Positions 46,296-52,037 of a stretch of 52,037 bases of DNA are shown here, one piece after another. Positions within the stretch are counted from its first letter, which is position 1, and each line of letters opens with the position of its first letter. The translations under genes were made by a program, and so were the position numbers. Below the pieces are notes generated by a model. It ran no database searches. It was not told the origin of the DNA and saw only the letters and a list, made by a program, of their open reading frames with translations. This DNA is from Shewanella sp. 10N.286.48.A6 (GTDB lineage: Bacteria > Pseudomonadota > Gammaproteobacteria > Enterobacterales > Shewanellaceae): the NCBI RefSeq assembly GCF_002873135.1, contig NZ_MCVI01000020.1, positions 1-52,037 on the forward strand. Direction: 5' to 3'.

Positions 46296-46694
46296 ATGTT
46301 TACATGGCCTATTTCTATTTATTATGAAGACACCGATGCTGGTGGTGTTGTTTATCATTCTAATTATTTAAACTTTTTCGAACGTGCTCGCACAGAGTGG
46401 TTAAAAGCTATGGGAATAAAGCAAACTGAATTGTTAGCTAATGACATTGCTTTTGTGGTGAAACATGCTGAGCTAGACTTTAAAGTTGCAGCAAGATTCG
46501 AGCAGAACTTAATTGTTGAATCTGAGCTGACAGAATTAAAAAAAGCTTCGCTGATATTTAAACAGCGATTGCTAGATGATAATGGTGTTAGCTATTGTGA
46601 AGCCACTATTGTTGTCGCTTGTATTGCTTTATCTCGAATGAGACCTAGGGCTATTCCATCCAATATTGTGCAGGAGTTTAATCGTGCAAGCTGA
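46296..46694 (+). CDS. ybgC: Tol-Pal-associated acyl-CoA thioesterase YbgC
   Basis: A 132-residue hot-dog-fold thioesterase; in E. coli it acts on acyl-CoAs and associates with phospholipid enzymes at the membrane. The active-site segment [24 protein letters not shown] with the catalytic aspartate starts near residue 9. First gene of the Tol-Pal operon; its end overlaps the tolQ start by 11 bases. Confidence 0.94.
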
Positions 46695-47373
46695 AATTTC
46701 TTTTATCGGTCTTTTTTTAGAGGCAAGTCTTCTCGTTAAGTTAGTGATGCTAACCTTATTATGTTTATCTATTGCCTCGTGGGCGGTAATCATTCAGCGC
46801 CGTAAATTGCTCAATTCAGCCCGCGCTAAATCAATAAAATTTGAAGATACTTTTTGGTCTGGTGTGGATTTGAATAAACTTTACAAAGAGTTGTCAATTC
46901 GTGGTGAATCATTGACAGGCCTTGAAGCATTATTTGTCGCAGGCTTTAAAGAGTACTCTCGCTTGAGTTCAGCAAACAGTAAGTCTCCTGAAGCTGTTAT
47001 GGACGGCACATCAAGGGCTATGCGAGTCAGTTTATCCCGTGAAGTTGAAAAACTTGATACTCATTTACCTTTATTAGCCACAATCGGTTCAACCAGCCCT
47101 TATATCGGCCTGTTCGGTACAGTATGGGGCATTATGAATTCATTTATTGCATTGGGCACAGTAGAAAATGCCACTTTAACTATGGTAGCGCCGGGTATTG
47201 CTGAAGCTTTGATCGCGACAGCTATGGGGTTATTTGCTGCTATTCCAGCTGTTATTGCCTATAACCGTTTCTCGACACAAGTAGAAAAACTTGAAATGGC
47301 CCACGTTAACTTTATGGAAGAATTTTCTAACATATTACAACGCCAAGCCTACAGCGAGAAGGAATCGGTGTAA
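46684..47373 (+). CDS. tolQ: TolQ, proton-channel subunit of the Tol-Pal complex
   Basis: An inner-membrane ExbB/MotA-like protein with three membrane helices. With TolR it uses proton flow to drive TolA during outer-membrane constriction. The conserved block [24 protein letters not shown] and the third helix [25 protein letters not shown] are visible. The start is GTG 46684, with AGGAG at good spacing, giving 229 residues (E. coli 230); the frame back to 46666 lacks such a site. Its TAA overlaps the tolR ATG by one base. Confidence 0.95.
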
Positions 47374-47798
47374 TGTATCAACGCAAGCGCCGCCGTCCAG
47401 TTGCCGAAATTAATGTTGTACCCTATATCGACGTAATGTTGGTGCTGCTTATTATTTTTATGGTGACAGCGCCAATTGTTTCACAAGGCGTAAAGGTGGA
47501 ACTACCTCAAGGTAAAGCTGAACCATTATCGGCAGAAAGCAAACCGCCTATCGTTGCCTCAATTGATGAGTTTGGTGAATACTTTCTGAATGTGGGCAGC
47601 GGATCAAATAACGATCCACTCTCATTGGATGAAATTTCAGTGCAAGTGGGTGCAATGATCCAGCTTGAGCCAGAAAGACCTGTAGTTGTAAAAGCCGATC
47701 GTCGCATAGCATATGAAAACGTGATTCAACTCATGGTCAGCTTACAAGGTGCGGGTGTGCCTGCGGTGGGCTTAATGACTGATTCGCCTGAGGAGTAG
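47373..47798 (+). CDS. tolR: TolR
   Basis: A 141-residue inner-membrane protein of the ExbD family. One N-terminal helix contains the functional aspartate (INVVPYIDVMLVLLIIFMV), followed by a periplasmic domain. It works with TolQ as the proton-driven motor. It overlaps tolQ by one base and ends 4 bases before the tolA GTG. Confidence 0.95.
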   Translation: MYQRKRRRPVAEINVVPYIDVMLVLLIIFMVTAPIVSQGVKVELPQGKAEPLSAESKPPIVASIDEFGEYFLNVGSGSNNDPLSLDEISVQVGAMIQLEPERPVVVKADRRIAYENVIQLMVSLQGAGVPAVGLMTDSPEE

Positions 47799-47802
47799 TT
47801 TG

Positions 47803-48735
47803 GTGGCTGTTAAATCTGAATTAACTTTACCCGTTGTTATTTCTGCCGGCATTCATATTGGGGTAATCGTGGTGCTTGCTTTAGGCATTAGTTTTGAAGA
47901 TAAACCTAAACATTTACCACAAACTCAATCTGAACCCATCGTTCAGGCCGTTGTGGTTGATCAGCAGCGTATTAATGACCATGCTGAAAAACTTAAACAA
48001 CAACGAAGCGATGCCGAGCGAAAAGAAAAACAACGTCAAGCTGAAATCGATAGGCAAGCGCGCAAAGCTAGAGAAGAAGTGCGAAAAGAACAAGAACGTA
48101 TTAAGCAGCTTGAAATTCAACGTAAGCAAAAAGAGCAAGAAACCATAAAAGCCAATAATGCCGCTAAGGCTGCGCAGCAAAAAGAAGCTGCAGAAAAAGC
48201 CAAAGCAGAAAAGGCCGCTGAACTTCGTAAACAGCAAGAAGCGCAGCGTATAGCTGCAGAGAAAAAAGCTGAAGAAAAGCGCCAGCGTGAAGAAGCTGCA
48301 GCTGCTAAAAAGCGTGAAGAAGACAGAAAACGTAAAGAAGAAGCTGAACGTAAACGTAAAGCCGAAGAGGCTGAGCGTGCTCGCCAGGAAAAAGAAATGG
48401 CAGATGCAATGGCTGCTGAGCAAGTTGCCTTATCTGCAACCCGTAATAAACAGGTTGTATCTGAGGTAAACAAGTATACCGCGATGATTAAATCAACTAT
48501 CCAACGTAATTTGGTTGTTGATGAGTCAATGCGTGGTAAAAGTTGCCGCGTGTTAATTCGATTAGCGCCAGATGGCTTTGTTACCGCGAGTCAAACATTA
48601 AGTGGCGATCAAGTTGTTTGTCGTGCAGCGAAAGCTGCGATAAATAAAGCAGGGCGGTTACCGGTTTCTTCTGAAGCTGATGTGTATAACAAAATGAAAG
48701 AAATTAATTTAACCGTATCACCGGAATTTAATTAA
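47803..48735 (+). CDS. tolA: TolA
   Basis: A 310-residue protein that spans the periplasm from the TolQR motor to TolB/Pal. An N-terminal membrane helix (about 8-30) is followed by a very long Lys/Glu/Ala/Arg-rich helical domain II (about 60-210). The C-terminal domain III has two cysteines (GKSCRVLIRL; DQVVCRAAK). Start GTG 47803 lies 7 bases after AGGAG; a TTG three bases earlier is too close. Domain composition is typical. Confidence 0.93.
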   Translation: MAVKSELTLPVVISAGIHIGVIVVLALGISFEDKPKHLPQTQSEPIVQAVVVDQQRINDHAEKLKQQRSDAERKEKQRQAEIDRQARKAREEVRKEQERIKQLEIQRKQKEQETIKANNAAKAAQQKEAAEKAKAEKAAELRKQQEAQRIAAEKKAEEKRQREEAAAAKKREEDRKRKEEAERKRKAEEAERARQEKEMADAMAAEQVALSATRNKQVVSEVNKYTAMIKSTIQRNLVVDESMRGKSCRVLIRLAPDGFVTASQTLSGDQVVCRAAKAAINKAGRLPVSSEADVYNKMKEINLTVSPEFN

Positions 48736-48744
48736 AGGGGTCAC

Positions 48745-50073
48745 ATGAAGATTTTGGCAAAATGGTTAACACTATTTGTAGTTCTTGTAAGTAGCAGTGC
48801 GAATGCCGCATTAGATATCGTTATTACTGAAGGTGTTGATGCTGCAAGACCTATCGCGGTTATGCCGTTTGTATGGCAAGGTACAGGGCCAGCACCTGAG
48901 CGTATCAGTGATGTGGTGACCAGTGACTTAGCTCGCAGTGGCACATTTAGTCCGCTTGATGCGCGCAGTTTACCGCAAGCAAATATCAGCACTGTGAAAG
49001 AATTTACCTCTCAAGTGTGGAATTCAACGGCATCTGAAGCGTTATTAGTGGGCTCAATTAAGCCTTATGGCAATAATCAATATTTGGTGAGTTTTGATCT
49101 GATTGATTTAGTCAAAGCCCAGCTACAAACTGATAAAGGCCCAATGAAAAACAGTGAACTACTGCTTGAGAGCCGTGAAACTGTTATCAGTGAAGCACAG
49201 TTTAGACAATATGGTCACCGCATTAGTGACATTGTTTATGAAAAACTAACCGGTATTCGTGGGGCGTTTTTAAGTCGAGTCGCTTATGTTGTCGTTAAAC
49301 AAGGTGAAAAATCTCCTTACCATTTGATGATTGCCGACTATGATGGTTATAACGAGCAAATGTTACTTCGCTCGCCAGAGCCGTTAATGTCACCAAGTTG
49401 GTCACCAGATGGCAGACGTTTAGCTTATGTGAGCTTTGAAAACCGTAAAGCGGAAATCTTTGTGCAAGATATTTATACCCAAGAGCGTACTAAAGTCAGT
49501 TCTCATCAGGGTATTAATGGCGCACCGAGTTTCTCACCAGATGGTAAAAAGCTTGCTGTGACACTATCTAAGGATGGTCAGCCTGAAATTTACGTAATCG
49601 ATATTGCCAGTAAAGCGATAAAGCGCATTACTAATCATTATGCTATCGATACTGAAGCATCGTGGATGCCAGATGGAGAGTCACTTATTTTTACCTCTGA
49701 GCGCGGCGGAAAACCGCAAATTTACCAAGTGAAACTCAGCACAGGTAAAATTTCACGTATGACCTTTGAAGGCGAGTGGAACTTAGGTGGCACGATCACT
49801 CCAGATGGTCGCAGTATGATTTTTGTAAACCGTACTAACGGAAAATACAATATTGCACGAATGGACTTGCAAACCCGTTTTATGCAAGTGCTGACATCAA
49901 CGACCCTTGACGAGTCGCCAAGTATTGCACCAAATGGCACCATGGTTATTTATGGTACTACACACCAAGGCAAGCAAGTGCTCGCTGCGGTGTCTATGGA
50001 TGGACGATTTAAAGCAAGATTACCCGCAGGTCAAGGTGAAGTTAAATCACCAGCCTGGTCACCATTTTTATAA
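48745..50073 (+). CDS. tolB: TolB
   Basis: A periplasmic protein of 442 residues with a signal peptide ending SSANA. An N-terminal domain is followed by a six-bladed beta-propeller whose repeats read [33 protein letters not shown] and [16 protein letters not shown]. It binds Pal, freeing it from or delivering it to peptidoglycan as TolA cycles. It begins 9 bases after tolA with AGGGG upstream. Confidence 0.96.
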
Positions 50074-50091
50074 TATTAATAAGGATTTCCA

Positions 50092-50640
50092 ATGAATCTG
50101 AATAAGTTGTTTAAAGCTATGTTAGTTGTTGTACCTGTTATGGCATTAGGTGCATGTAGCACAACTTCAGAATCTGAAACCGATGCAAGTGGTTCTACAA
50201 GTGGCTCAACCACAACTACTGGCGGTGAATACGGTTCTGGTGGTGTTGAAACAGGAGGCGTTGCACCAATCTTAACGCCTGAAGAGCAACAACGCGTAGA
50301 GCAAGAAGAATTACGCGCTCAAAATATCATTTATTTTGATTTTGACCGCAGTGAAGTACAAAGCGAAAACGCTGCCATTATTCAAGCTCATGGCAATTAC
50401 TTAGTTGAGCATCCAAATGTTCGTGTATTAATTGAAGGTCATGCTGATGAGCGTGGTACACCTGAATACAATATTGCTTTAGGTGAAAGACGCGCTAAAG
50501 CTATTGCGAAATACCTTCAAAGTATGGGTGTACAACCAAGTCAAATGAGTGTTGTTAGTTATGGTGAAGAAAAGCCATTAGATTTCTCTCGAAGCGAGAG
50601 TGGTTTTGCTAAAAACCGTCGTGGTGTTTTAGTTTACTAA
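50092..50640 (+). CDS. pal: Peptidoglycan-associated lipoprotein Pal
   Basis: An outer-membrane lipoprotein linking that membrane to peptidoglycan. The lipobox is ALGAC. A Ser/Thr/Gly-rich linker follows, then an OmpA-like domain with IIYFDFDRSEV and IEGHADERGTPEYNIALGERRA. The 182 residues fit the family. It starts 18 bases after tolB. Confidence 0.96.
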   Translation: MNLNKLFKAMLVVVPVMALGACSTTSESETDASGSTSGSTTTTGGEYGSGGVETGGVAPILTPEEQQRVEQEELRAQNIIYFDFDRSEVQSENAAIIQAHGNYLVEHPNVRVLIEGHADERGTPEYNIALGERRAKAIAKYLQSMGVQPSQMSVVSYGEEKPLDFSRSESGFAKNRRGVLVY

Positions 50641-50669
50641 TCATCGCGGTTGAACTTTCGTAATAGGAA

Positions 50670-50687
50670 GGCCAGCACTTGTTGGCC
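50670..50687 (+). promoter_or_regulatory. Small RNA hairpin between pal and cpoB
   Basis: GGCCA and TGGCC pair around an 8-base loop, just before the cpoB ribosome site TAGGAG. There is no T run, so it is more likely a processing or stability element than a terminator. Confidence 0.35.
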
Positions 50688-50704
50688 AGTTTAGGAGTTT
50701 ATTG

Positions 50705-51430
50705 ATGAAACATGCTGTTTTATTTGCTGCAATGTTTTTTGCTGCTGGTGCCACTGCTGCGCCAGCGCCGGTGCAAGATCTTGCTGGTGGTTCAAATGAC
50801 GATCGTATATCTCGTCTCGAGCGTATCATTAAAGCAAAACAACAAACGGAATTTGAAGCGCAGCAGCGTTTAGATACTTTGCAACGTGAAGTGTTAGATT
50901 TGCGAGGCATTACTGAGCAGCAAGACTATCAAATTAGTCAAATGTTACAGCGTCAACGTCAGTTGTATGAAGAAATTGCTAATTTATCAGCTAGTGCCGC
51001 GGCGACTACGGTTACCGTTGCTGAAAATAATGCCGCTTCAGCAGGCCCATCTAGCTTAGGTGAAACTGCAAGTTACGAGCAAGCGGTGAATTTAGTGCTT
51101 AAAGAGCGTAAGTACGATGAGGCTATTCCTGCTTTTAGTGATTTTATTAAGCAATACCCTGATTCCACTTATGCAGCAAATGCAAATTATTGGTTAGGGC
51201 AACTGTTGTTTAATAAAGGTACCTTTACTGAAGCGAAGCAAGCTTTTGATGCAGTGGTCACTAAATATCCTAATTCTAATAAGCGTGGTGATAGTTTAGT
51301 TAAGTTAGGCATGATTGCTGAAAAAGAAGGTGATAAAGCTACCGCAACTGCTTTTTACAATCGAGTGCTTAAAGAATACACAAATAGTGCATCGGCACGT
51401 TTAGCACAGCAACAATTGTCTGCGTTGTAA
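50705..51430 (+). CDS. cpoB: CpoB (YbgF), cell-division coordinator
   Basis: A periplasmic protein that couples peptidoglycan synthesis with Tol-driven constriction in E. coli. A signal peptide ends ATAAP. A coiled-coil region spans about residues 35-90 (RISRLERIIKAKQQTEFEAQ). C-terminal TPR repeats follow from about 120 (YEQAVNLVLKERKYDEAIPAF; YWLGQLLFNKGTFTEAKQAF). ATG 50705, after TAGGAG, is chosen over the TTG just before it. It is the last gene of the operon. Confidence 0.94.
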   Translation: MKHAVLFAAMFFAAGATAAPAPVQDLAGGSNDDRISRLERIIKAKQQTEFEAQQRLDTLQREVLDLRGITEQQDYQISQMLQRQRQLYEEIANLSASAAATTVTVAENNAASAGPSSLGETASYEQAVNLVLKERKYDEAIPAFSDFIKQYPDSTYAANANYWLGQLLFNKGTFTEAKQAFDAVVTKYPNSNKRGDSLVKLGMIAEKEGDKATATAFYNRVLKEYTNSASARLAQQQLSAL

Positions 51431-51501: not shown

Positions 51502-51529
51502 TTGCATGAGCAAATGAAAAAGGTATTAT
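51502..51529 (+). promoter_or_regulatory. Stable-RNA promoter upstream of the tRNA-Lys locus
   Basis: TTGCAT, a 16-base spacer and TATTAT are followed by the GC-rich discriminator AGGCGCCC, typical of stringently controlled tRNA and rRNA promoters. Confidence 0.65.
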
Positions 51530-51535
51530 AGGCGC

Positions 51536-51561
51536 CCTCAGAACGGAGCGACGTTCTGGGG
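51536..51561 (+). other. Hairpin at the 5' end of the tRNA-Lys transcript
   Basis: CAGAACG and CGTTCTG form 7 perfect pairs around GAGCGA, extended by one G-U and two G-C pairs. It would be the first structure of the precursor RNA; no T run follows. Confidence 0.45.
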
Positions 51562-51649: not shown

Positions 51650-51731
51650 GGGTCGTTAGCTCAGTTGCTTGTTCAAAACAGACAGTTGGCTTTTGTTCCA
51701 ATCAAGACGTTAGTGTTGATAAAACCAAGAT
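51650..51731 (+). repeat. tRNA-Lys-derived repeat, copy A
   Basis: The first 18 bases are identical to the 5' end of the tRNA-Lys that follows. The rest differs, except for the anticodon-arm core CAGTTGGCTTTT and CCAAT. T arm and 3' acceptor strand are missing, so it cannot be a tRNA. The unit is 82 bases and ends where the true tRNA begins. Confidence 0.85.
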
Positions 51732-51807
51732 GGGTCGTTAGCTCAGTTGGTAGAGCAGTTGGCTTTTAACCAATTGGTCGAAGGTTCGAATCCTTCACGA
51801 CCCACCA
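51732..51807 (+). tRNA. tRNA-Lys (TTT)
   Basis: A full 76-base cloverleaf with encoded CCA. The acceptor stem is GGGTCGT/ACGACCC with discriminator A. The D arm is GCTC/GAGC. The anticodon arm GTTGG-CTTTTAA-CCAAT gives anticodon TTT. The T arm is GAAGG-TTCGAAT-CCTTC. The position downstream of the tol-pal operon matches the lysine/valine tRNA operon of E. coli. Confidence 0.97.
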
Positions 51808-51876
51808 CTTTTCTGAAAGTGAGATTGCCAGTTTGGCTTTAATTCAGACGTAATACATCGTTACGTAAAACTAGAT
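51808..51876 (+). repeat. Spacer with a decayed tRNA-Lys-like remnant
   Basis: The spacer shares TTCTGAAAG with the sequence preceding copy A. It contains CAGTTTGGCTTTAATTCAGACG, a corrupted version (here with a gap in the middle) of the repeat's anticodon-arm segment. A small hairpin ACGTAA/TTACGT lies at 51848-51866. Confidence 0.5.
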
Positions 51877-51957
51877 GGGTCGTTAGCTCAGTTGCTTGTT
51901 CAAAACAGACAGTTGGCTTTTGTTCCAATCAAGACGTTAGTGTTGATAAAACAAGAT
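51877..51957 (+). repeat. tRNA-Lys-derived repeat, copy B
   Basis: Identical to copy A apart from one missing C near the 3' end (AAAACAAG for AAAACCAAG), giving 81 bases. It is directly joined to copy C. Confidence 0.85.
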
Positions 51958-52037
51958 AGGTCGTTAGCTCAGTTGCTTGTTCAAAGCAGACAGTTGGCTT
52001 TTGTTCCAATCAAGGCATTAGTGTTGATAAAACCAAG
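51958..52037 (+). repeat. tRNA-Lys-derived repeat, copy C, cut by the window end
   Basis: Same unit as copies A and B with four substitutions, including A for the first G. Eighty bases are present and the array probably continues past the window. Confidence 0.85.

Follow-up and report, generated by a model that had tools for sequence, protein, structure and literature searches.

A tRNA-Lys-derived repeat with a conserved predicted fold in the tRNA-Lys arrays of Shewanella

The 52,037-nucleotide stretch of Shewanella sp. 10N.286.48.A6 DNA analysed here (hereafter, the window) ends on its right edge in a tRNA-Lys array downstream of cpoB, and the array runs into an assembly gap of 702 N (contig positions 52038-52739). 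Based on the translations of the open reading frames, the genes at 46666-51430 resemble what we take to be tolQ-tolR-tolA-tolB-pal-cpoB, and the frame ending at 51430 is presumably cpoB, a name assigned from the tol-pal gene order. The array promoter lies on the forward strand at 51502-51529 (TTGCAT, 16 nt, TATTAT) and is followed by AGGCGCCCTC in this genome; a simple promoter scan of this window missed it. In the leader, directly after the promoter, there is an inverted repeat (AGAACG...CGTTCT, 51540-51557), and judged by eye the leaders of relatives may hold similar hairpins of other sequence.

Three repeats flank a true tRNA-Lys (UUU; 51732-51807, tRNA call), as described in the initial annotation, which had reported tRNA-Lys-derived repeats interleaved with a true tRNA-Lys. 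These repeats (hereafter, p units) are all encoded on the forward strand, as are the tRNA and the 69-nt spacer that follows it (51808-51876): unit A spans 51650-51731 (82 nt), unit B 51877-51957 (81 nt) and unit C 51958-52037 (80 nt), the end of unit C being lost in the gap that directly follows it. The identity to the first 18 bases of the tRNA that had been claimed for the repeats is exact in units A and B, and holds at 17 of 18 positions in unit C (A at position 1). The one-base difference reported between A and B is a deletion in the tail of B, and unit C differs from A by four substitutions; an 85-nt reference found two further copies in the window at 95% ungapped identity. A covariance model of the p units matched A, B and C in this genome with E-values of 2.5e-15, 8.6e-14 and 2.0e-12, all three being among the rows from which the model was built. 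ARAGORN and Rfam called the true tRNAs at the locus and nothing else, and neither found a cloverleaf with an acceptor stem and T arm in the p units, in line with the reported loss of these parts. Extension past 52037, proposed as a way of counting copies, did yield a tRNA-Lys beyond the gap; it sits in a 120-nt stretch that matches the first tRNA and the adjoining flank at 98% identity. Beside the CCA end, at 51808-51830 and in other post-tRNA-Lys spacers, there is an apparent hairpin whose sequence is species-variable and whose pairing, by eye, is seemingly kept.

To place these units in the genus, we used 129 congeneric genomes. An initial DNA search matched 127 of the 129, but plain tRNA-Lys also matches that query; cpoB was located in 127, and array DNA was read in 115, many of these arrays ending at contig ends. 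The 14 genomes left out were two without a cpoB match (G091 and G104) and twelve in which cpoB lies about 850 bases or less from the array-side contig end. The arrays were cut at the tRNA start, and only units beginning with that start (≤3 mismatches) are visible. The called tRNA-Lys genes had a normal D arm in every case (636/636), whereas the D arm was expanded in 281 of 282 classifiable pseudo-units; 13 further pseudo-units were unclassifiable, and 12 were cut or contained N, with a normal D arm in 6 of those 12. At least one expanded-D-arm pseudo-unit was present in 75 of the 115 genomes; the comparison of Shewanella relatives downstream of cpoB suggested at the outset does recover recurring repeats. 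Three forms were distinguished using our own pattern rules, by which 30 genomes carry p (31 by the covariance model). The r form (61 units, 34 genomes) is long and has an altered D arm, and in many r units the T arm or acceptor is changed as well; the s form (76 units, 36 genomes) has no recognisable tRNA 3' half; and the p form, that of the window, accounts for 144 units in 30 genomes, with a copy number of 1 to 11 per genome that is comparable to that of tRNA-Lys. Many r and s forms retain the Lys anticodon loop. We read the pseudo-units in these sequences as an old, separate lineage and not a steady supply of decaying duplicates, because such a supply should include many copies with a normal D arm.

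An assembly artefact is ruled out, since single-contig genomes hold the same arrays (e.g., G046, G051, G072, G090 and G122). Remnants of integration elements are disfavoured as well: such remnants keep the tRNA 3' end and p the 5' one, and none of the viral contigs searched contained the exact p core. At seven array ends in the p clade (L047, L052, L053, L056, L059, L064 and L067), D-arm-expanded tRNA-Lys-like units lie beyond the last true tRNA, many of them with an intact acceptor and T arm; they are not called by ARAGORN.

To profile the distribution of the forms, 98 genomes were placed on a cpoB protein tree rooted at its midpoint, some deep nodes of which have a support of only 0.21-0.39. 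In this tree one clade of 30 genomes (support 0.97) carries the p form, which was detected in 28 by pattern labels and in 29 by p-model matches at E≤1e-5, the exception being G024 with p-like units scoring about 41 bits. None of the other 68 tree genomes had a p-model match at this threshold; G103, outside the clade, had a weak one (39 bits), and two more genomes with matches (G042 and G097) lie outside the tree sample. A clade of 14 genomes (support 0.82; L102, L104, L105, L110, L114, L117, L120, L127, L129, L131, L132, L134, L172 and L173) has plain tRNA-Lys arrays without pseudo-units; 13 of these arrays comprise 6 to 14 genes, and one has 3. Pseudo-units are also missing here and there in other groups outside these two clades, and 22 of the 98 tree genomes have arrays of at least five tRNAs that contain no classified pseudo-unit.

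Named carriers of the exact p core are all Shewanella: S. frigidimarina, S. algicola, S. gaetbuli, S. basaltis, S. metallivivens, S. inventionis, S. aestuarii, S. subflava, S. saliphila, S. holmiensis and two strains without a species name. Across 394 genomes of the order, the p model matched nothing outside Shewanella except in G150, and that match was rejected as a p unit, being a true tRNA-Lys. The D-arm-expanded tRNA-Lys pattern was found in 13 of the 394 genomes, all of them Shewanella (1 of 114 genera), as an exact pattern that misses diverged forms and, by design, p units (0 in this genome); no similar units were found in the 113 other sampled genera. The p units had no match in Rfam, and judged from titles and abstracts no recognisable paper deals with these repeats, so the pseudo-tRNA repeats look undescribed so far.

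For the fold of the p unit, 101 of the 121 distinct units were aligned. Left out were 20 units: 13 of diverged form (L068, L070, L072-L075), three others (from L053, L056 and L077), two deletion variants of 67 nt from L061, and two units of L052 that contain no N. Domain I is a long imperfect hairpin in which GGGUCGUUAGCUCAGU, copied out of the 5' half of the tRNA, is base-paired to AGUUGGCUUUUGUUCC, a rewritten form of the anticodon arm. It is followed by a second hairpin (domain II) and by a tail, AAAACCAAGAU, which doubles as the leader of the next unit and ends as the spacers end. In the minimum free energy (MFE) fold of unit A, domain I occupies 51650-51699, domain II 51701-51720 and the tail 51721-51731. 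Domain II and the core of domain I are each present in the MFE fold of 91 of the 101 units; single-sequence folding energies were mostly unremarkable (seven units, z from -3.0 to 0.0).

The chosen structure, tested on the same sequences it was derived from, had 94% of cells paired compared with 31-47% in slid controls, and two-sided changes in 9 of 23 pairs, among them all seven pairs of domain II. In a tree-aware null, each column was simulated along a FastTree tree with its own substitutions (1000 runs). Domain II was paired in 90% of cells against 61% in the null (0/1000) and had 167 double-changed cells where the null gave 23 (0/1000). The apical part of domain I was 92% paired against 56% (0/1000) and the outer part 97% against 90% (5/1000), and two-sided changes in domain I were below the null (1 versus 5.1; 738/1000). 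An all-pairs covariation test, corrected for 3081 column pairs, had no single significant pair (best E 0.65), and its top three pairs were domain II pairs. With one unit taken per array (27 arrays), domain II was 48% identical yet 94% paired; as aligned, it is a region where sequence was lost and structure kept. Under the tree-aware nulls, unstructured drift is rejected for p.

Some natural variants carry parts of this fold. The 67-nt units of G070 (L061) are deletions without domain II that hold domain I alone, and two spacers in G072 and G090 (L055 and L058; 89 and 86 nt) retain domain II and the tail along with a brief GGGG...CUCC stretch. These natural deletion forms suggest that the two domains are separable.

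Duplication or conversion within the array, one of the origins proposed for the near-identity of units A and B, is supported by the divergence of p units, which in ungapped comparison is 10% within genomes and 31% between them. The p 5' end often tracks the tRNA of its own genome, and exceptions are numerous (e.g., G003, G006, G026 and G039). Because copies are closer within genomes and the 5' end often follows the local tRNA, we take exchange within the array to be ongoing, and little weight for function can therefore be placed on the first 18 bases. The stronger evidence lies in the conserved non-tRNA part and domain II. Among 22 genomes (231 pairs), nt 19-51 were 82% identical, a stretch containing ten tRNA-shared bases that exchange could keep alike, and the tail was 86% identical. 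In the same pairs, the identity was 56% for cpoB third positions at conserved residues, 66% for post-tRNA spacers and 47% for domain II. Across 27 arrays, the D-arm insert alone was 73% identical and the seven bases after AGTTGGCTTT were 79% identical. Judged by the fold nulls and core conservation, p units do not drift freely as tRNA pseudogenes would. Selection, another of the proposed causes, is also supported, by a fold and core retained across the 30-genome clade, and the description of the repeats as "non-functional copies" is probably wrong for the same reason; absence or free drift of the repeats in relatives, named in advance as the outcome that would speak against a role, did not occur in the p clade.

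The promoter placed at 51502 by the initial annotation held up in the comparison: TTGCAT, TATTAT and the 16-nt spacing are invariant in 28 of 28 aligned arrays, with and without p, and GGCGCCC follows the promoter in 27 of the 28. This invariance makes it very probable that p belongs to a stable-RNA precursor. At the 31 loci that carry p, the 144 p units were followed by a tRNA 106 times, by another p unit 31 times and by something other or unclear 7 times; a tRNA was followed by p 84 times and directly by a tRNA 32 times. The last unit was never p in these loci, a pattern that may be mere history, as unequal crossing-over preserves array ends.

Collectively, the sequence comparisons support p as a tRNA-Lys-derived and no longer tRNA-like RNA module, belonging to an expanded-D-arm lineage found only in Shewanella among the genera sampled. 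They likewise support that in one clade this lineage shed the acceptor and T arm and came to consist of two hairpins followed by a conserved tail, and that p is kept by selection on RNA structure. Our leading reading of its role, to which we give somewhat less than even confidence, is that p is a selected, structured internal transcribed spacer and leader of pre-tRNA-Lys that acts in cis. It draws on co-orientation, the promoter, the conserved fold and the conserved tail, all from comparison. The order of units (p mostly ahead of a tRNA and never last), the spacer-like ending of the tail and the clade-dependent apical loop also speak for a role in cis, and the 32 direct tRNA-tRNA successions speak against it. 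The units would be transcribed together with tRNA-Lys from the array promoter and work in cis as spacer and leader. Domain I may sequester the tRNA 5' half that the module itself carries and that might otherwise base-pair with the acceptor strand of a neighbour, and domain II with the unpaired tail may expose the 5' end of the next tRNA to RNase P. The module would presumably be excised, with a benefit to folding or to RNase P; once released, the spacer may build up at a fixed ratio to tRNA-Lys, any role in trans being secondary. Recombination through the start common to every unit would largely account for the 5' identity and the shifting copy number.

The same closeness of copies within genomes would also be expected of a neutral passenger, a unit without function whose copies stay alike through recombination and whose hairpins stay paired through local quasi-palindrome repair. 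The 5' end that often follows the same-genome tRNA, with its many exceptions, and the absence of units from many other species point the same way. This account is nonetheless unlikely given that nt 19-51 are conserved well beyond cpoB third positions, that p-model matches occur in 29 of 30 genomes of the p clade, and that 281 of 282 classifiable pseudo-units are D-arm-expanded, unlike a steady supply of decaying copies. A little less probable again is a trans-acting small RNA or sponge, in which p, cut out of the precursor as a stable RNA, binds other RNAs or a tRNA-handling protein and the number of copies sets its dosage. The tRNA-Lys-like copy number and the conserved core would suit such a role, and passages on 3'ETS-leuZ (PMC8166272) and RtT (PMC4986893) offer E. 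coli precedents. The sponge role raised in the initial annotation gained no support: with unit A, shuffled sequences paired as well in 62/300, 287/300 and 243/300 cases with a Spot 42 homologue and two sub-threshold GcvB-like loci, respectively, and a family search of this genome found no RyhB. The apical loop, a possible seed site, is unlike between clades, and none of the p units read has a U-rich tail.

Very improbable, in our view, is a decoy tRNA whose Lys anticodon-arm sequence lures tRNA-modifying enzymes or tRNA-Lys anticodon nucleases off the true tRNA. The conservation of AGTTGGCTTT at 98% and the Lys anticodon loop of many r and s forms would fit it, but in p the arm is folded otherwise, and an anticodon-arm-like fold is not favoured (pairing 61/1000 against the tree-aware null, arm-like hairpin in 1 of 101 MFE folds).

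A broader claim, which we consider doubtful, is that p represents a new class of bacterial non-coding RNA: a tRNA-Lys duplicate whose D arm expanded, whose 3' half was lost and which was remade as a two-hairpin RNA, made in parallel with tRNA-Lys by the shared operon and either trans-acting or a required precursor element. If true, p would count as a functional internal transcribed spacer whose r, s and p intermediates are still visible in one genus. The arrays offer a traceable case of the change from a tRNA gene to a different structured RNA within its own operon, several forms being preserved in living species. Should p RNA accumulate, its promoter would be the one that also serves the tRNA-Lys genes of the array. 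The arrays make the function of spacers inside tRNA operons a testable question.

Among known systems, RtT and 3'ETS-leuZ are nearest in kind, and we file p as a tRNA-operon-derived RNA belonging to neither. RtT comprises tRNA-related repeats in the tyrT operon that carry the tRNA-Tyr 3' end. The p units are likewise tRNA-derived repeats in a tRNA operon, but carry a refolded tRNA-Lys 5' half; with the RtT model (RF00391), none of 60 congeneric genomes had a match over the cut-off, and G034 had one sub-threshold match. The E. coli lysT-valT-lysW-valZ-lysYZQ genes form a lysine tRNA array downstream of cpoB, the position that the array also has in Shewanella, and we know of no pseudo-tRNA modules in the E. 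coli array. In the passages concerned, RtT is described as an RNA liberated from the E. coli tyrT operon transcript (PMC4986893) and 3'ETS-leuZ as a 53-nt trailer acting as a small-RNA sponge in E. coli, and a figure legend of the same 2021 review gives no stable internal spacer as reported (PMC8166272). Similar to 3'ETS-leuZ, p would by position and promoter be a non-tRNA part of a tRNA precursor, assuming co-transcription; unlike it, p is internal and not a 3' trailer, repeated, tRNA-derived and two-hairpin. Ordinary tRNA pseudogenes share with p the derivation from a tRNA gene, whereas p is conserved and structured, and the D-arm-expanded forms are found repeatedly across the genus (75 of 115 genomes).
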